Below are positions 36,744 through 45,915 of a stretch of DNA of 64,000 nt, one piece after another. The notes under the pieces were generated by a model. The model searched no databases. It was not told the DNA's origin and saw only the letters and a program-made list of their open reading frames with translations. Numbering within the stretch: position 1 is the stretch's first letter; each line of letters starts with the position of its first letter. This DNA comes from Acidobacteriota bacterium (GTDB lineage: Bacteria > Acidobacteriota > Vicinamibacteria > Vicinamibacterales > UBA8438): positions 790,346 to 854,345 of the forward strand of contig VXRJ01000018.1 of the NCBI GenBank assembly GCA_009838525.1. Reading direction: 5' to 3'. The position numbers and the translations under genes are program-made.

Positions 36744-37550
36744 ATGGCCTCTCTCGCCAGCCGCCTCCACCGGACGTGGGGCATGGGACGCTCGCTGGTC
36801 GTCTACCACGGAATTCCGGGACGCCAGCGGCGGTTGCGCCGGCTCTACCGATGTTTCGTCAAACCCGGCCAACTGGCGTTCGACCTCGGCGCCCATGTCG
36901 GCAATCGGACCCGTGCTCTGCGCGCCCTCGGGTGCCGCGTGGTTGCCGTCGAACCGCAGCCCGACTGCGCCCGGCTGCTCCGGTCGTGCTTCGACGATTC
37001 GGATCGGCGCAAGCGCGGCCGAAGAGTGCACACGCATCCCGCGATCGGCCATGTCGCAGTCCTCGAGATGGCGGTCGGCGCCTCCTCGGGGCCGGTGTCG
37101 CTGGCGATCAGCGAACGTCATCCCACCCTCACGACCACGTCGGCGGCCTGGCTGGAGACTCGGGGAGCCGATCCGCTGTTTGCGCGAATCCGCTGGAACA
37201 GACACACCACGGTAGAAGCGACGACACTCGATCTCCTGATTCAGAGGTTCGGCCTCCCCTCCTTCGTGAAGATCGACGTGGAGGGATCGGAATCGGAAGT
37301 CCTGGCGGGGCTCACGCAGCCGGTCCCCGGCCTCTCGTTCGAGTTTCTTCCCTCCGCGCTGGCCGACGTCCGGCTCTGCGTCAAGCGCCTGGAAGCGCTC
37401 GGACGCTATGGCTACAACTGGTCGTCCGGCGAGTCGTACAAGCTGGCGTCGGCCGACTGGCTGACCGGCAAGGAACTGATGGACGCGCTCGAGAGCGCCG
37501 ACGCCCAGCGCCGCTCGGGCGACGTCTACGCCGTCCTGGGAGATCGGTGA
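36744..37550 (+). CDS. FkbM family methyltransferase
   Basis: A 268-residue SAM-dependent methyltransferase. SAM motif I is AFDLGAHVGNRTRALRALG, followed by VVAVEPQPDCARLL, and the FkbM signature FVKIDVEGSESEVLAGL is near residue 175. FkbM enzymes O-methylate hydroxyls of sugars, polyketides and other small molecules. Its stop overlaps the next methyltransferase start by four bases (GTGA), making it the first gene of a plus-strand unit that continues through a second methyltransferase and the creatininase-family gene. Confidence 0.9.
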   Translation: MASLASRLHRTWGMGRSLVVYHGIPGRQRRLRRLYRCFVKPGQLAFDLGAHVGNRTRALRALGCRVVAVEPQPDCARLLRSCFDDSDRRKRGRRVHTHPAIGHVAVLEMAVGASSGPVSLAISERHPTLTTTSAAWLETRGADPLFARIRWNRHTTVEATTLDLLIQRFGLPSFVKIDVEGSESEVLAGLTQPVPGLSFEFLPSALADVRLCVKRLEALGRYGYNWSSGESYKLASADWLTGKELMDALESADAQRRSGDVYAVLGDR

Positions 37551-38434
37551 CACCCGTCCCGCGCTTCGACACCGGCGCCGTCCGCCGGTACTACGACCGT
37601 CACACGGCCCGCTTTCTCTCCTGGGGCCAGGGGGGAAGCGTCGGCGCCATCCACCGCGCTGTCTGGGGACCGGGAGTCGCGACGCGCGAGCAGGCGTTCC
37701 GGTACGTCGAAGACCGGATCGCCGACCAGTTGCCGGCATTGGCGTCACCTGACGGCAGCGTCACCGTGATCGACCTCGGGTGCGGCGTCGGCGCAACCCT
37801 CTGCTCGCTGGCGGAACGCCTGCCGGCGCTCCGCGGACTTGGCGTGACCCTCAGTCCGGTGCAGGCGCAGGAGGCCCAGGCGCGAGTTGAACGGCAGGGC
37901 CTCGTGGATCGGGTCCGGTGTATCGAGGGTGACTTCTGTGATCTCTCACTCGACCTGTCAGTGCCGGCGCCGGACCGACACCCGCGCGTAGATCTCATCT
38001 ACGCCATCGAGTCGTTCGTCCACGGGACGAATCCCGCCTTCTTCTTCATCCAGTGCGCCCGGCGACTCCGCCCCGGCGGGCGCGTCATCATTTGCGACGA
38101 CATGCTCCGGCCGGACGGGCATGCTCCCGGCGCGAGGCGAGCGATCGAGCGTTTCCAGCGCGGTTGGCGGATCAACACGCTGATCGACCGTGAGGAACTG
38201 CGGAAGCTGGCGGGCGGCGGCGGCTTCGCGCACGAGTCGACAATCGACCTCACGCCGCACCTGGAGCTGCGCCGCCCCCGCGACCGGGGTATCACCTTCA
38301 TGGCCAACGTGGTCCGATGGCTGCCGCTCGACGGCCCACTCGGCCACCTGACCGGCGGCGCCGCGCTTGGCCGTTGCCTGCAACGCGGCTGGATCGCCTA
38401 CGATCTCGCCCACTTCCGACGTCGCGATGACTGA
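37547..38434 (+). CDS. Class I SAM-dependent methyltransferase
   Basis: A 295-residue protein. The glycine-rich SAM motif VIDLGCGVGATLCSLAE is at about residue 75, with GVTLSPVQAQEAQAR and RLRPGGRVIICDDML further on; this layout is close to small-molecule C- or O-methyltransferases of the cyclopropane-synthase/UbiE type. The start is GTG at 37547, which overlaps the FkbM stop. The end overlaps the creatininase-family start by eight bases. The substrate is unknown, but strict coupling suggests the same pathway as the flanking genes. Confidence 0.85.
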   Translation: MTPVPRFDTGAVRRYYDRHTARFLSWGQGGSVGAIHRAVWGPGVATREQAFRYVEDRIADQLPALASPDGSVTVIDLGCGVGATLCSLAERLPALRGLGVTLSPVQAQEAQARVERQGLVDRVRCIEGDFCDLSLDLSVPAPDRHPRVDLIYAIESFVHGTNPAFFFIQCARRLRPGGRVIICDDMLRPDGHAPGARRAIERFQRGWRINTLIDREELRKLAGGGGFAHESTIDLTPHLELRRPRDRGITFMANVVRWLPLDGPLGHLTGGAALGRCLQRGWIAYDLAHFRRRDD

Positions 38435-39248
38435 TTCACCCTCGAGATCGTGGGCACGGATGCCACCACGTGACCGGCGCGCCCTGGCCAGGCGCGATCC
38501 GGTGGCCATCCTGCCGCTCGGCGCCACGGAACAGCATGGTCCACACCTGCCGCTTACGACTGACAACGACATCAACCGCGGCCTCCTGGAACGCGCCCTC
38601 GCCAGGATTCCGCCCGACCTGCCGATCACCGTCTGCGAACCGGTCGACATCGGCGCCAGCGACGAGCATCTCGACGACCCGAACGCAGGGAGTTCCGGTC
38701 AGGGGACGGTGTCGATCGGCGCCGATGGCATGAAGTCCCGGATCCTGCGGGAAGGAAGGAAGCTCGCCCGCGCCGGCGTCCGGCGACTCGTTCTTCACAA
38801 CAGCCACGGCGGAAACCGCCACGCCATGGAAATCGCGGCGCTTGACCTCCGTCGCCGCCAGCGGATGCTGGTGGTCTCGGCGAGCTGGTTCCGTTTCGGC
38901 CGGCCGCACGACGTCGATCTCCCGGAGTCCGAGTGGCGCCACGGGCTGCACGGAGGCGCCGTCGAGACCGCCATGATGCTGCATCTCCACCCCGACCGCG
39001 TCCGGACCCGGTGGATTCGGCGCTTCGCGTCTATCGGTGAGGAACTCGCGCAGGCGGGTTCGACGATCGGCCCCGAGGCGGCGGCGCCGTTCGCGTGGAT
39101 GGCTTGGGACCTGAACCCGAACGGCGTCGTCGGCGACGCGACGCTCGCCACTCCCGTGCTGGGGCGGCGGCTCGTCGAGTACTACGGGGGCACGCTGGCC
39201 GCGGTCATTCGCGACGCCAGGGCGTTTCCGCTCGACCGTCTGGTGTAA
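38427..39248 (+). CDS. Creatininase-family amidohydrolase
   Basis: A 273-residue metal-dependent amidohydrolase. The first metal motif LGATEQHGPHLPLTTD gives Glu35, His37 and Asp46; the second is HNSHGGNRHAMEIA, and the C-terminal VVGDATLATPVLGRRL matches the family ending. Members include creatininase, MftE of mycofactocin synthesis, and archaeal ArfB, which removes formate from the formamidopyrimidine made in the first step of archaeal riboflavin and F420 synthesis. The ArfB role would fit a location next to a GTP cyclohydrolase and a RibD-type reductase, but cannot be fixed from sequence. The 3' end overlaps the convergent GTP cyclohydrolase gene by 44 bases. Confidence 0.88.
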   Translation: MTDSPSRSWARMPPRDRRALARRDPVAILPLGATEQHGPHLPLTTDNDINRGLLERALARIPPDLPITVCEPVDIGASDEHLDDPNAGSSGQGTVSIGADGMKSRILREGRKLARAGVRRLVLHNSHGGNRHAMEIAALDLRRRQRMLVVSASWFRFGRPHDVDLPESEWRHGLHGGAVETAMMLHLHPDRVRTRWIRRFASIGEELAQAGSTIGPEAAAPFAWMAWDLNPNGVVGDATLATPVLGRRLVEYYGGTLAAVIRDARAFPLDRLV

Positions 39249-40446
39249 CCGGCGGCACCGATGCCCTGTGGGCCGGTGTTGACCGTTTCGGCGGAATGGC
39301 GGCGTCGGCGCCCGCCAGCATGTCGTGCAGCCAGTGGCCGGCCCGTTCCACCTTCGCCTTGACGTAGGGCTCGTTGTGAGGGTTGAGCGTGCCGTAGAGC
39401 GGCATCCGGCCCGCCACGTCGATGCCCGCCTCGCCCAGCGCAGTTACCTTGCCGGGGTTGTTTGTCAGCAGTTGAACCCGTTTCACACCCAGCACGCGAA
39501 GCATGTCGATTGCCGCGGAGTACTGCCGCTCGTCGGCGCCGAAGCCGAGCGTGCCGTCGGCGTCGATCGTATCGAGCCCTTCCTCCTGTAGCCGATACGC
39601 GCGCAGCTTGTTCGCCAGGCCGATGCCGCGCCCCTCCTGCGACATGTACAGAAGCACGCCGCCGCCCTGCTGGGCAAAGTAGCGGAGCGCTCCCCGCAGC
39701 TGCTCGCCGCAATCGCACCTGAGACTGCCGAACAAATCGCCCGTCAGGCAGGCGGAATGGATCCGCACCGGTGTTGGATCGGGCCACGACTCAGGTGCTC
39801 CGAAGAGAATCGCGACATGGTCGAGCAGGCCGTGCGACTCGCGGAAGATGACGAAGCGGGCATCCTCCGCCTCCGCGAGGGGGACCGGTCCGTCGCTGAC
39901 ACGCGTCACGTGGACGCTCCCGGCGGACGTGAGCACGTCGATCTGATCAGTCGTCACGGAGAGGGCCACGCCTCGATCAATCGCCTGCCGCAGCGGCTCC
40001 GAAGTGCCGGGGTCGGCCGTCACGCTCACCACGGCGGGCAGCAGGCGACCGACACGCACCAGGCGCAGGGCGCCCGTCTCGATGGACGATGCGGCACGAC
40101 AGTCGAATTCGTCCTGACCGAACACGCCTCGCGAAGTCGCCAGGTGGACAATCTGATCCGCGTTCTCGCCGTTGAGGGCCAGACTGATCGGCGCCGCCCC
40201 CGTCGCCCTGACCTGCCGCTCCCCGTCCAGCGGGGCTGTCGACAGGCCCATCGAGGCCGCCCGCTCCCCGGTGACGGCGAGACGAACCGGTCCCTGGCGC
40301 CGCAGCGCTTTCAGCGCCGAGCCCGCCAGACCGTCGACGGCGGCGATCAGCGCGCCCGGTTCCGGCGCGGCCACACCGTTGGACGGGCCGACGTAGATCG
40401 GACGTCCCTGCCGGAGGTCGAACAGACCACGTTCAGCTTCGTACAT
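39205..40446 (-). CDS. GTP cyclohydrolase II-like protein with long N-terminal domain
   Basis: A 413-residue protein. Residues 225-375 are a complete GTP cyclohydrolase II domain: zinc cysteines Cys233, Cys244 and Cys246 in HSACLTGDLFGSLRCDCG, QEGRGIGLANKLRAYRLQ with Tyr284, GFGADERQY with Arg307, and LLTNNPGKV. The enzyme opens GTP to a 2,5-diaminopyrimidine ribotide, formate and pyrophosphate. The first 200 residues are not a recognisable RibB; the usual DHBP-synthase acidic motifs are absent. E. coli RibA is only 196 residues long. A Ser/Thr/Pro-rich tail of about 40 residues overlaps the convergent creatininase gene. It is divergent from the RibD-like gene, 38 bases apart. Confidence 0.85.
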   Translation of the reverse strand: MYEAERGLFDLRQGRPIYVGPSNGVAAPEPGALIAAVDGLAGSALKALRRQGPVRLAVTGERAASMGLSTAPLDGERQVRATGAAPISLALNGENADQIVHLATSRGVFGQDEFDCRAASSIETGALRLVRVGRLLPAVVSVTADPGTSEPLRQAIDRGVALSVTTDQIDVLTSAGSVHVTRVSDGPVPLAEAEDARFVIFRESHGLLDHVAILFGAPESWPDPTPVRIHSACLTGDLFGSLRCDCGEQLRGALRYFAQQGGGVLLYMSQEGRGIGLANKLRAYRLQEEGLDTIDADGTLGFGADERQYSAAIDMLRVLGVKRVQLLTNNPGKVTALGEAGIDVAGRMPLYGTLNPHNEPYVKAKVERAGHWLHDMLAGADAAIPPKRSTPAHRASVPPVTPDGRAETPWRRE

Positions 40447-40484
40447 GACGAACGTTCGCTACTGTACCCTCAGTCGGAGCCATC

Positions 40485-41351
40485 GTGCGTACCCCACAAG
40501 AGCCTACACCGCCTCTCGACCGCACGCTGGCCTGGCGCCTTGTTCGAACCGCCGGCCCGGGCGCAGGCGCCGCTAGACGTATCTATCATGATTCGGCGCC
40601 CTCGGTGTGGCTGCAAACCCTTCCCAGCGGCGGATGGAAAACGTCACATCCGCCAACCGACGAAGCGCGGCTGATACTGGACCTGTTCCTGCCGCTGCAA
40701 CTCCGGCCGGATCTGATCGTGGTCCAGGCCGGCCAAAGTCTGGACGGTCGGATCGCCACCGAAGCGGGGCACTCTCACTACATCACCGGGCCGGAGGACA
40801 TCCGACGGCTCCACCGGCTTCGGTCGCTGGTCGACGCGGTCGTCGTGGGCGCCGGTACGGTCGCCAGCGACAACCCTCGCCTGACGGTCCGGGAAGTGGA
40901 TGGAGACAATCCCGCGCGGGTCGCCATCGACCCGGACGGGCGACTCGATCCGGCCTGTCATCTCTTGGCCGACGGCGCCGCGCCCACTCTGGTCGTCCGC
41001 CGTGACGGCGCCGCCGGGAGCGCCCTCCCCGGCGTCGAGACCATCACCCTGCCCGCCGATGCCAACAACCGCATCGATCCCCGGGCAATAGCGCAGGCGC
41101 TTCGCGCACGGGGCTTCCGGCGGCTGTTGATCGAAGGAGGCGGACTGACCGTGTCCCGTTTTCTGGACGCCGGCATCGTCGACCGGCTCCATGTCACCGT
41201 CGCCCCGCTGCTGATCGGCTCCGGACGTCCGGCCTTCACCCTTGCGCCGATTGCGACGCTGGATGAGGCTCTGCGGCCCCCATCCCGTACCTTCCGGCTC
41301 GGAAACGACGTTCTGTTCGATCTGGATCTGGGCTCCGGCGGCACGCCCTGA
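40485..41351 (+). CDS. RibD C-terminal-type reductase, no deaminase domain
   Basis: A 288-residue protein. From about residue 75 it matches the dihydrofolate-reductase-like reductase domain of RibD: LIVVQAGQSLDGRIATEAGHSHYITG, LRSLVDAVVVGAGTVASDNPRLTVR, LLIEGGGLTVSRFLDAG and VAPLLIGSG. Such enzymes reduce the ribosyl chain of the pyrimidine intermediate to ribityl with NADPH. The zinc deaminase domain of bacterial RibD is missing; the first 75 residues are unrelated and Trp/Pro-rich. Reductase-only forms occur in archaea and fungi, where reduction precedes deamination. The start is GTG at 40485. A single-gene unit facing the methyltransferase gene. Confidence 0.85.
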   Translation: MRTPQEPTPPLDRTLAWRLVRTAGPGAGAARRIYHDSAPSVWLQTLPSGGWKTSHPPTDEARLILDLFLPLQLRPDLIVVQAGQSLDGRIATEAGHSHYITGPEDIRRLHRLRSLVDAVVVGAGTVASDNPRLTVREVDGDNPARVAIDPDGRLDPACHLLADGAAPTLVVRRDGAAGSALPGVETITLPADANNRIDPRAIAQALRARGFRRLLIEGGGLTVSRFLDAGIVDRLHVTVAPLLIGSGRPAFTLAPIATLDEALRPPSRTFRLGNDVLFDLDLGSGGTP

Positions 41352-41401
41352 CCGGCGCGGCTCACCGCTCTCGACGCTACGCGAGGTTTCACCACGGCTC
41401 C

Positions 41402-42223
41402 TCAATCCGGGGGAAGAGCGAGAAAGTCCGTGTGACCGACAATCAGCCGGAACTGGCCGCGGGCGATTGTGCGCGAACGGCGCGCGGCCCAGGCTCGAAC
41501 CCGCTCCTCCTCGCCCGTCTGTTCGATAGCCGCCTCGACCCAGCCATCGAACAGCAGGCGGACGACCGCCATGTCGTCGGGGCCAAGCTGCCACGGACTC
41601 CGGAACAGCCAGGCGCGGTAGCCGGATCCCCGGAAGAGCATCTCGGCGTGCAATCCCGCCATGGGACCGAGCGCGCGGCCGAACCCCTTGTCACGCCGCT
41701 GGTGTTCGTTCACCGCGCGCCGGATCCAGCCATCGTCGACGTCGTCCGATTCGTCGTGGACCACCCACTCCAGGATGCCGTCGTAGTTGAGCGCAAACAG
41801 CACCGCGGCGCTTGTCGCGCGGCACGTGTCGACAACCGCGGCAAGCCAGTCCTTCGACACGAGATCGAGCAGCGCCGACGCCGTCACCAGGTGGGCGCCC
41901 GTCGCACGGGCCACCTCCAGTCCTGCGCTCGCCAGGTTCCCGGTCAACGTGGCCAGGCGCAGGTCGGGCACCCCCTCGGGCGGCCTCGCGCGCGCCAGCA
42001 ACTCATGATCGTGATCGAACAGTGTCCATTGCTGCGGCCCGGGCAATCGGGGCGCGAGGTATCGCAGATTCGATCCGGTGCCGCTGCCGAGATCGATGAT
42101 GTTCGACCAGCCATGCTTCGCCCAGGCCGGCGCCAGCAGTTGCATGACCGCCTTCGCCCTCGACTGGTGATCGAGCGGCTCTCGCATGGCCAGCCAGTCG
42201 GCCTCGAACCGTTCCTTCGTCAA
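41402..42223 (-). CDS. SAM-dependent methyltransferase-like protein
   Basis: A 273-residue protein. SAM motif I is NIIDLGSGTGSNLRYLAPRL, and WTLFDHDHELLARA supplies the acidic residue after strand 2. Later segments (HLVTASALLDLVS, VLFALNYDGILEWV) fit a small-molecule methyltransferase, with a divergent C-terminal half containing AGLHAEMLFRGSGYRAW. The start is taken as TTG at 42223, preceded by GGAGAGGA; the longer frame to 42310 would overlap the glycosyltransferase gene with an Arg-rich leader. It is the last gene of the minus-strand unit ADH - PTPS-like - GT4 - methyltransferase. Confidence 0.78.
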   Translation of the reverse strand: MTKERFEADWLAMREPLDHQSRAKAVMQLLAPAWAKHGWSNIIDLGSGTGSNLRYLAPRLPGPQQWTLFDHDHELLARARPPEGVPDLRLATLTGNLASAGLEVARATGAHLVTASALLDLVSKDWLAAVVDTCRATSAAVLFALNYDGILEWVVHDESDDVDDGWIRRAVNEHQRRDKGFGRALGPMAGLHAEMLFRGSGYRAWLFRSPWQLGPDDMAVVRLLFDGWVEAAIEQTGEEERVRAWAARRSRTIARGQFRLIVGHTDFLALPPD

Positions 42224-42237
42224 TCCTCTCCTCCGTG

Positions 42238-43401
42238 CTAGCGCGCCTTTGCGGGCGCGCGGGCGCCAAGCTCCTGGACCGCCGTTTGCGGCGCCAGCTC
42301 CAGCAGACATCGTTCGAAAACGGCGACCGCCGCGTCCCAGTCCGGCAGCGCGGCGGCATGACGTCGCGCCGCCGCCGCGAGCGTGGCACGCCGTCCGTCG
42401 TCACTCAGCAACGTCTCCAGCGCAACCGCCAGGGCCTGTTCGTCCCCCGGCGTGACCAGCAGTGCTGCATCGGCCGGCGCTGTGTGGGGAATCGCGCCGC
42501 CCGTCGTGCTGACGATCGGCAATCCGCGCGCCAGCGCTTCCGCCAGCACCATGCCGTACCCTTCGTAGTGCGATGGCAGGACGAAGATCGAACTGCGGCC
42601 GTACAAAGCGTCGAGTGCCGCGTCGTCGCACTCCCCCACGAATCGGATCCTCTCGTCCAGACCCGTCTGGACAACCGCCGCCATCACTTTCCGGACGAAC
42701 GCCGTCTTCCGGTCGAGTGCCCCGGCGCAGATGCAGGTCCACGGGCGATGCCGCAGGCGTGCGAGGGACTGCACGAGGATGTCATGCCCTTTTCGCGGAG
42801 TCACCGAGGCGACTACCAGCAACATGGGCGGATAGCCGGCAACCGGTCCCCTGGCTGGCGCCGACGGATCCGTTCCCGGACGGACAACCCGCAGATGGGC
42901 CGGATCGACGCGATACCTCTCTGTCAGCGTCCGTGCAGTAAACGCGCTGGTCACGATCACGCCCCGCACGGCGGCCAGCCCACGCATTTCCAGCGTCGCC
43001 AGCCGCGCGCTGACCGCGGGGTCGAGTCCCGTCTCCTCGGCGACCGGATGGTGCACGAGCGCGACGATGCGCAACCGTTCCCCATGCTCGGCGACCGGCT
43101 CCGGCAGTCCCGCCATCGCGAGTCCGTCGATGACGACAAGCGCCTCGTCAGGCTGCGCGCAGAGCGCCGCGGCCAGGCTGTCTCGGGCGCTATCGTCCGG
43201 ATCCGGAAACCTCCCCCGCAGACCCACGCGATCGATCCGCCAGCCGCGCAGCTCGAGGCCATCCAGCATGCGGTTGTCGTAGCGGTAGCCACCCGTCCGT
43301 TGTCGAAGCGGGGACGGCGCCAGCAGGCACAATCGCCGGCCGGTCGGTCTGGCGCGACCGGCCTCGCCTCCGACGCATGCCGCAGCACGCGGTCCGCTCA
43401 C
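42238..43401 (-). CDS. GT4 family glycosyltransferase
   Basis: A 387-residue GT-B glycosyltransferase. The N-terminal domain ([23 protein letters not shown]) has the Gly-rich acceptor loop, and [15 protein letters not shown] precedes the donor domain with [21 protein letters not shown], and [28 protein letters not shown], which holds the E-x7-E motif. The start is GTG at 43401, overlapping the stop of the PTPS-like gene by four bases (GTGA). The last codons run into a CTAGCGCGCC-type stem-loop, so the Ala/Arg-rich C-terminus may be shaped by that element. The glycosyl acceptor may be the product of the surrounding pyrimidine-type pathway. Confidence 0.88.
42239..42260. repeat. CTAGCGCGCC-type stem-loop
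   Basis: GCGCGCC (42241-42247) pairs with GGCGCGC (42254-42260) across TTTGCG, directly preceded by GCTA. It resembles the element at 15491-15517 and overlaps the 3' end of the glycosyltransferase gene. It could act as a structured spacer or a REP-like element. Confidence 0.3.
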
Positions 43402-43796
43402 ACAGTCCCCTCGTAACTGCCCCAGGCGACGTGCGACTCGTGCAGCGTCACCTTGATCCTGGTGGCTCCCTCGCCGGCCTCCCCCAGATCGCCCGCCCGG
43501 GCGGCCTTCGCCAGCCGGTCGAAGATCGTCTTTGCCAGCACCTCCGTCGATGTGTTGCCGCCCGAGAACGCGACCTCCTCGTCCAGGTTGCGATAGTTGA
43601 ACTCCGCGAGAATCGCGCGCAGTACGTCCGCGGCGCGGCCGATGTCGACAACGATGCCGTCCGGGTCGAGATCCGGACGGGCGAACGTCGCGTCGACAAC
43701 GTAGGTAGCGCCATGCAGTCGCTGCGCGGGGCCGAACTGCTCACCCCGGAAGCTGTGCGCAATCATGAAGTGGTCGCGGACGTTCAGGCTGTACAT
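43398..43796 (-). CDS. 6-pyruvoyl-tetrahydropterin synthase/QueD-like protein with altered active site
   Basis: A 132-residue T-fold protein. Family hallmarks are the leading DHFMIAHSF (zinc His14), [13 protein letters not shown] (zinc His28), [17 protein letters not shown] and [18 protein letters not shown], plus a C-terminal Glu120. Aligned by eye with QueD, the catalytic Cys is Ala24, the third zinc ligand His is Ala30, and the Asp-His pair is Asn67-Tyr68. The normal triphosphate-eliminating chemistry is thus unlikely; a different reaction or a binding role is possible. ATG at 43796 gives the standard short N-terminus. It is 19 bases after the dehydrogenase gene and overlaps the glycosyltransferase gene by four bases. 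Confidence 0.82.
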
Positions 43797-43815
43797 CGGT
43801 CTAACCCCCAGGATT

Positions 43816-44805
43816 TCAGGCGCCGTTGCCGTAGCGGATGCGGTGGCAGAGCGTATCATCCGGCGCGGCGCTCAGCCTCGCCATGACGCGCGGCACTTCC
43901 TCGAAGGGACTCTCGTGGGTGATGAGCGCATCGAATCGACCGTCGGCAAGGAGCGAGAGGGCGAATCGCAGGCGCCGTTCGCGCGTCCACTCGGCGGCGC
44001 GACGCGGCGGGACGCGTCCCACCTGGCTGCTCCGGATCGTCAGACGCCGCACGTGAAACGCCTCGCCGAGCGGAAGCGTCACCTCGCGCGCCCCGTACCA
44101 GCTTGCCTCGACAATGGTCCCTTCCATCGCCGCCACGTCGAGCGCCGCCCGTAGGCCCCCCGGTGCGCCGCTTGCGTGGATCACGAGATCCGCCGTCGCC
44201 GCCGGCGGCGGATCCGGACGCCACTGCAGACCCAGCGCATCGGCGACCGACTCGCGGGACCGGTTCGGATCGACCACCGTCACCGACGTCGCCGCGACGT
44301 CCCGGCAGCGCGCGGCGGCAAGCAGGCCGACCACGCCGCCGCCAATCACGACGATCCGGCTGCCCACCACCGGAGCCGCGTCCCAGGCGATGTTGACCGC
44401 CGTCTCCATGTTGGCGGCGAGCACGGCGCGCTCGGCCGGCACGTCATCCGGCACCGGATGGACGGCGGCCGCCGGCACGAGGTAGCGATCCTGGTGCGGA
44501 TACAGGGAGAACACCGTGCGCCCCGCCAGCGTCTCCGGCCCCTCCTCCACGACGCCGACACTGCTGTAGCCGGACGTCACCGGCCCCGGATAGTCCCCCT
44601 GCTGAAACGGCGCGCGCATGGCCTCGTACTGCGACGGCGGCACGGCGCCCCGAAAGACCAGCGTCTCCGTGCCGCGGCTGATCCCGCTGTAGCGCGCGCG
44701 GACCAGCACCGCGTCTTCTTGCCTCGGCGGCAGATCGACGCGCACAATCTTCCCATGGCCCGGGTGGCTGACCACGAACTGCCGGGCGGTGCCGGTGACG
44801 GCCAT
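43816..44805 (-). CDS. BchC-like medium-chain dehydrogenase
   Basis: A 329-residue MDR-superfamily oxidoreductase. The segments [20 protein letters not shown] and [27 protein letters not shown] resemble the BchC type (bacteriochlorophyllide hydroxyethyl dehydrogenase), where the usual Cys/GHE catalytic zinc ligands are absent. The NAD(P) fold is [20 protein letters not shown] followed by TVVDPN. BchC oxidises a hydroxyethyl side chain on a tetrapyrrole; here no chlorophyll genes are near, so an alcohol on another ring is likely. The start ATG at 44805 lies only nine bases from the divergent CDP-alcohol phosphatidyltransferase start. It heads the unit with the PTPS-like, GT4 and methyltransferase genes. 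Confidence 0.82.
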
Positions 44806-44814
44806 CCGCGCAGT

Positions 44815-45915
44815 ATGGAGCCGAGGCCGCGCGTAGTCCAGAAGGCGCCCCGTCAGTCCAGCAGCCTCCGCCGGGCCGGCGAAGACCTCCTGACCGGGCT
44901 GGCGCCGCTCCTGGCGGGCGCCCTTGGCGTCTGGTACGCGTTCGGGCTCCCGCTGATCTACTTCGCCGACGTCCTGGGACTGTACGGGCTGCTGGCGGGC
45001 CTGCTGGTCTATACGCTGCCGACCCGCCTGCCGCTCCCGGGCATTGGCCCCGCCAACCGCGTCACCCTGTTCCGCGCAACCCTGCTTCTGCCGGTCTGCG
45101 CCCTGGCGCTCCACTCATCGTTAGCGGAGGCCAACGTCCGCTGGTGGATCATCGTCGTCGGCACCATCGTCATGGTGCTGGACGCGGTCGACGGCCAGGT
45201 GGCTCGCCGGAGCGGCGGGAGCACCCGGTTCGGCGCCCGCTTCGACATGGAGCTGGACGCCTTCCTACTGCTGGCGCTTTCCGTACTGGTCTGGCGGTCC
45301 GGCCAGACAGGTCCCTGGGTGATCCTGATCGGTCTGCTCCGGTACCTCTTCGTCGCGGCCGGCTGGATCTGGCGCGACCTGACAGGGGAGCTCCCCGAAA
45401 GCTACCGGCGCAAAACGGTATGCGTAGTGCAGGGTGTGGTCCTCCTGACCTGTCTGGGCCCGATCATCCCGGCCACCATGGCCGCAACGATTGCCGCCCT
45501 CGCGCTCGCCCTGTTGATCTGGTCGTTCGGCGTCGATGTCCGTTGGCTCCGGACGGCTTCTCGTCGCCTGGCCGTCATTGCCGCCGTCTTCGTCGCCACC
45601 GGCTGCGGCCCCGCATGGCTCTCGAACGAGACGCGGCTGACCGTCGACGAACTGACGGAGCGCGCCGAACAAGGCGACAACGGTGCGCTGTTCGATCTCG
45701 GGACGCGTTTTCACGCCGCGGACGGCGTGCAGCGCGACAACATCACGGCCTACATGTGGTACGCGCTCGCCGAGGAATTCCTGACGACGGAGGAGCGCTA
45801 CGAGGCGGCACGCATGCAGCTTGTGCTTGACCCCGACATGTTCCGGCACGAGATCGACGAGGCGCACCGGCTCGCCCGGCTGTGGAAGGCGGAGTATCGG
45901 CCAGCGGCGCGCTGA
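44815..45915 (+). CDS. CDP-alcohol phosphatidyltransferase fused to a Sel1-like tail
   Basis: A 366-residue membrane enzyme. The catalytic motif is complete: Asp123, Asp126-Gly127, Ala130-Arg131, Gly140, Asp144 and Asp148. It would join a CDP-linked alcohol or CDP-diacylglycerol to a hydroxyl. About seven transmembrane helices reach to residue 255. Then comes LAVIAAVFVATGCGP, which reads like a lipoprotein lipobox at Cys264, followed by about 100 residues with a Sel1/TPR-like repeat (ALFDLGTRFHAADGVQRDN). There is no stop between the two parts, and no good internal start codon. Either a true fusion or two genes joined by loss of a stop. The start lies nine bases from the divergent dehydrogenase start. 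Confidence 0.83.
   Translation: MEPRPRVVQKAPRQSSSLRRAGEDLLTGLAPLLAGALGVWYAFGLPLIYFADVLGLYGLLAGLLVYTLPTRLPLPGIGPANRVTLFRATLLLPVCALALHSSLAEANVRWWIIVVGTIVMVLDAVDGQVARRSGGSTRFGARFDMELDAFLLLALSVLVWRSGQTGPWVILIGLLRYLFVAAGWIWRDLTGELPESYRRKTVCVVQGVVLLTCLGPIIPATMAATIAALALALLIWSFGVDVRWLRTASRRLAVIAAVFVATGCGPAWLSNETRLTVDELTERAEQGDNGALFDLGTRFHAADGVQRDNITAYMWYALAEEFLTTEERYEAARMQLVLDPDMFRHEIDEAHRLARLWKAEYRPAAR

Follow-up and report, generated by a model that had tools for sequence, protein, structure and literature searches.

An in-frame junction between CDP-alcohol phosphatidyltransferase and Sel1-like lipoprotein sequences in an Acidobacteriota genome

In a stretch of 64,000 nucleotides of an Acidobacteriota contig (hereafter the window), a single reading frame was confirmed to run from a CDP-alcohol phosphatidyltransferase into a lipobox and a Sel1-like tail. 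Judged from the sequence, an in-frame joining of two adjacent genes has taken place, whether in the genome itself or through a deletion in the assembly. An even chance was given to one particular reading, namely a fusion of formerly separate neighbours whose chain would be lipidated at Cys264 by Lgt and cut by LspA.

The fused frame, its enzyme half and its neighbours

Translation from the ATG at 44815 to the TGA at 45913-45915 yielded 366 amino acids with zero internal stops, which bore out a preliminary description of the frame as open from enzyme to tail. The column of the start residue M1 was invariant in an alignment of the window frame with four relatives, and no SD-like 4-mer was seen upstream of this start. 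The parts of the frame are given below.

44815..45915, forward strand: fused open reading frame, 366 aa plus TGA (translation; start common to four relatives)
45052..45522, forward strand: CDP-alcohol phosphatidyltransferase domain, residues 80-236 (Pfam PF01066, E 7.4e-18, 65.8 bits)
45181..45258, forward strand: complete catalytic motif, D123-D148 (translation; motif residues invariant in the alignment)
45535..45567, forward strand: junction residues 241-251 (DVRWLRTASRR), the enzyme C-terminus (comparison of length, charge and homologues)
45568..45606, forward strand: hydrophobic stretch and lipobox, residues 252-264, ending in Cys264 (pattern match; Cys invariant with four relatives)
45607..45912, forward strand: Sel1-like tail, residues 265-366, a lipoprotein gene of its own in relatives (identity to four lipoproteins; profile matches to Sel1 proteins in the PDB)

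The match to PF01066 (CDP-OH_P_transf) covered 149 of the 152 profile positions, with a bit score well above the cut-off of 22. The pattern D-x2-DG-x2-AR-x8-G-x3-D-x3-D, which we take to be the CDP-alcohol phosphatidyltransferase motif, was complete in the translation, in agreement with the perfect catalytic motif claimed earlier. Every named NCBIfam enzyme scored weakly against the fused protein, the best being pgsA with 32.5 bits against a cut-off of 109.1, and a sequence comparison of the enzyme half alone with solved structures returned no relative at E ≤ 0.01. The structure model of the fused protein, based on a 7-row alignment, reached a mean pLDDT of 59.4, with residues 241-273 below 50. 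With this low-confidence model as the query, Foldseek gave 0 matches in the PDB at E ≤ 0.001, and the first five rows by E-value (0.02-0.13) were Sel1-type or AlgK proteins.

Eight hydrophobic segments were observed up to residue 240 in a hydropathy plot, and homologue comparison placed the end of the conserved enzyme part at about residue 245. The seven-helix core reaching to about residue 255, as originally described, was thus not recovered.

A conserved block lies beside the enzyme (36744-44805), comprising an FkbM methyltransferase, a methyltransferase, a creatininase family protein, GTP cyclohydrolase II, a RibD_C reductase, a weakly matched methyltransferase, a GT4 glycosyltransferase, a PTPS and a zinc-type dehydrogenase. 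The presence of pterin/flavin-precursor genes alongside a glycosyltransferase and the CDP-alcohol transferase suggests an undescribed pathway; a literature search turned up no paper that names this gene set. The starts of the dehydrogenase (reverse strand, ATG 44805) and of the enzyme (forward strand, ATG 44815) are 9 nt apart, and therefore either each promoter is located within the coding region of the other gene or the assigned starts are not the true ones.

Lipoprotein signal, topology and tail

Following the enzyme segments, the hydropathy plot displayed the basic stretch DVRWLRTASRR and then a short ninth hydrophobic segment containing Cys264. A PS00013-like pattern, which we assume to describe a lipobox, fitted at Cys264 and in 4/4 tail-bearing relatives, all from one other genus (g2), and the A-x-G-Cys of the lipobox was identical in the window and all four. 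The lipoprotein-like signal with Cys264 had been correctly recognized in the preliminary description. In the window chain this signal is internal, at about residues 246-264 of 366, not N-terminal. A helix spanning residues 251-262 was modelled in the lipobox stretch, within the low-confidence model.

Topology was derived from a simple hydropathy plot and K/R counts, with 6, 2, 4, 4 and 4 K+R residues in the presumed inside loops and 0, 1, 1 and 0 in the outside loops. From this pattern, the enzyme C-terminus was placed inside and Cys264 on the outer side. A cytoplasmic enzyme C-terminus followed by an RR n-region, a hydrophobic stretch and an outer Cys264 should constitute a complete internal lipoprotein signal. 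Residues 252-264 are accordingly predicted to be an extra ninth segment, a signal-peptide anchor beyond the natural C-terminus of the enzyme and not its last helix. Hydropathy and homologue ends thus contradict the earlier proposal that the last helix doubles as an anchor.

Tat export was considered and rejected: the RR at residues 250-251 appears Tat-like by eye, but the four relatives lack such a motif. For this reason ordinary Sec export was assumed. In the window genome, LspA is matched once and Lgt twice.

When the tail alone was compared with Pfam Sel1 (PF08238), the match remained under the cut-off (E 0.054, 14.5 bits against 30.7). A profile of five tail sequences matched solved Sel1-repeat proteins, the best being 4bwr_A (E 1.9e-28, 6 stretches), with 6ok3_A at E 5e-20. 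The assignment of about 100 residues to a Sel1/TPR-like tail, made earlier, therefore holds by profile comparison with solved Sel1 proteins but not by the single Pfam match. A chance tail was ruled out because the sequence shares 57-64% identity with lipoproteins whose genes occupy the corresponding position in the four relatives (G001, G010, G017 and G023). The tight linkage in g2 suggests that the enzyme and the tail may work together.

The two-gene arrangement in relatives

In all four tail-bearing relatives the tail was encoded by a separate lipoprotein gene, with a stop between it and the enzyme. This answers the question, raised earlier, of whether homologues carry the tail fused or separate, and it agrees with the suggestion that two genes were joined through loss of a stop. 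The enzyme stop was TAG in G001 and G023, followed in both by 8 nt and the lipoprotein ATG; in G010 and G017 it was TGA, with 4 and 20 nt before the ATG, respectively. The tail frame differed from the enzyme frame in 4/4 g2 genomes, and the g2 lipoproteins were 124-127 residues long, with a normal signal peptide ending in A-[SVA]-G-C.

The distance between two fixed motifs was 510 nt in the window compared to 563, 544, 560 and 578 nt in the four g2 genomes. The window junction is thus 34-68 nt shorter, and the enzyme stop, the spacer and the lipoprotein ATG are absent. In 23/23 homologues (L009-L031) the enzyme frame reaches a stop no more than about 25 residues past its conserved end, a count that leaves out L032, whose contig ends inside the gene.

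When the whole protein was searched against 60 relatives, 48 matched some part of it at E ≤ 0.001. Searches with the tail alone gave matches in 5 of the 28 family genomes (E ≤ 1e-12) and in 5 of the 162 from the order (E ≤ 1e-11), the window's own genome being included in both; the carriers were the window genome and the four genomes of g2. At the level of the class, the enzyme was matched at E ≤ 1e-25 in 70 of the 193 genomes searched. At this threshold, enzyme and tail formed one match in a single genome (the window), the tail was a second match beside the enzyme in four (g2), and a tail match was absent in the other 65. When the tail alignment was used to scan GTDB contigs, 6 loci emerged. 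Three belong to g2 genomes already known; the other three (L046, L047 and L048) code for distant Sel1-like proteins that share 33-34% identity with the tail, in MAGs whose titles name Rhodospirillales or Kiloniellales.

Genomes about as close as g2 and yet tail-less were G020 of the same family (57% identity) and three genomes from family f14 (55-58%). In a 24-sequence enzyme tree, the branching among the window, g2 and G020 lacked resolution, and the sister status of g1 and g2 was not settled. Because of this, the direction of change, from two genes to one, was taken from the signal peptide.

Origin and possible processing of the fused chain

Between 45520 and 45637 no stop was found in any forward frame; the first stop past the junction is at 45638 in frame 1, after the Cys264 codon. 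A single-base sequencing error was ruled out, the junction being stop-free in all forward frames, and for the same reason a one- or two-base indel cannot restore two genes. Two-gene homologues had been expected in the preliminary description to indicate a sequencing error, but a small error is insufficient, since a loss of 34-68 nt is needed. A larger artefact, in which the true genome has two genes like g2 and tens of bases including the stop and the ATG were dropped from the consensus, was considered unlikely. It would suit the two-gene state of 4/4 tail-bearing relatives and the fact that the fusion is known from one genome of the genus, in a single assembly. On the other hand, the loss happens to keep the frame, and the conserved flanking genes (GTP cyclohydrolase II, RibD_C, methyltransferase, glycosyltransferase, PTPS and dehydrogenase) each align to g2 in unbroken frames. 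Amino acid identity to g2 was 55-59% for the enzyme and, in this comparison, 58-63% for the tail, and codon positions 1-2 were better conserved than position 3 in 8/8 comparisons covering both halves. The stop-free junction, the unbroken neighbours and the conservation of both halves favour a real fusion. The onset of decay, with the fusion as a loss of function that left tail or enzyme out of use, is very improbable. Restriction to one lineage and the loss of one start and one stop would fit it, but the motif is complete, the frame has no stop, and no sign of decay was seen, as the halves are about equally conserved and constraint follows codon position in both, a measure that covers the whole branch and not just the time since fusion.

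In the reading given an even chance, a short deletion, a few tens of bases long, would have removed the enzyme stop, the spacer and the lipoprotein ATG, and the basic enzyme C-terminus RTASRR would now provide the n-region for the lipoprotein signal LAVIAAVFVATG-Cys264. The change would have run from two genes to one, with the assembly correct at the junction. The whole fused frame would be translated as one chain, which would cross the membrane once more after the end of the enzyme; there, on the outer side, Cys264 would receive its lipid from Lgt, and LspA would cut ahead of it in a polyprotein-like manner. The expected products are an enzyme carrying one short additional helix and the usual lipoprotein, and release by Lgt/LspA processing of the same two proteins as in the g2 relatives is the most likely outcome. 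Slightly less than an even chance was given to the broader proposal that the chain is a naturally occurring polyprotein, from which the lipoprotein maturation pathway frees a multi-spanning enzyme and a lipoprotein by splitting at an internal lipobox, making the intergenic stop and start dispensable. The literature search, which covered titles and opening parts of abstracts, turned up no multi-spanning protein with a lipobox midway along its chain, and cleavage at such a site is, within these sources, therefore without precedent.

The main biological rival is a stable fusion with nine segments, in which the lipobox stretch would remain in the membrane, forming a ninth helix that holds the Sel1-like tail outside in covalent linkage to the enzyme. 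Frame and topology would be equal to those of the processed chain, and internal signals may be poorly recognized. This alternative is nevertheless doubtful, as the stretch is short and typical of a signal peptide (12 residues before Cys264, with the low-confidence helix noted above) and the lipobox A-x-G-Cys is unchanged between the window and each of its four relatives. Far less probable is a second start inside the enzyme frame, from which the tail would also be made as a product of its own. The only internal starts near the junction in the enzyme frame are ATG 45478 (residue 222) and TTG 45514 (residue 234); these are in frame, but both lie just before or inside the last enzyme hydrophobic segment (224-240), and an SD-like 4-mer is absent in 45441-45610.

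If the processed chain is indeed cut at Cys264, Lgt and LspA would accept a lipobox amid a multi-spanning protein, and adjoining genes for a membrane enzyme and a lipoprotein could fuse with both products kept. Annotators would be warned that such a single frame may mean two mature proteins. If the junction is an assembly slip, the true layout is an ordinary two-gene pair as in genus g2.

The fusion brings known parts together in a variant seen in a single lineage. The window protein shares the catalytic motif and the Pfam domain with the CDP-alcohol phosphatidyltransferase family (PF01066), to which it adds two hydrophobic segments ahead of the domain and the fused lipoprotein. With Sel1-like repeat lipoproteins it has in common the lipobox signal and Sel1-type sequence, whereas its tail is short (about 100 residues after the Cys), stays below the Pfam cut-off even in its best single repeat and lacks a start codon of its own. 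A literature search on a further related system, FbcH, yielded no paper on the subject. Bradyrhizobium FbcH, the cytochrome b/c1 precursor, is a single chain in which an internal export signal comes after a multi-spanning protein and which is cut into two proteins. This order of a multi-spanning part and then an internal export signal is common to FbcH and the window. The proteins are unrelated to the window pair, and FbcH is cut by ordinary signal peptidase, whereas the window chain would use lipidation and LspA.
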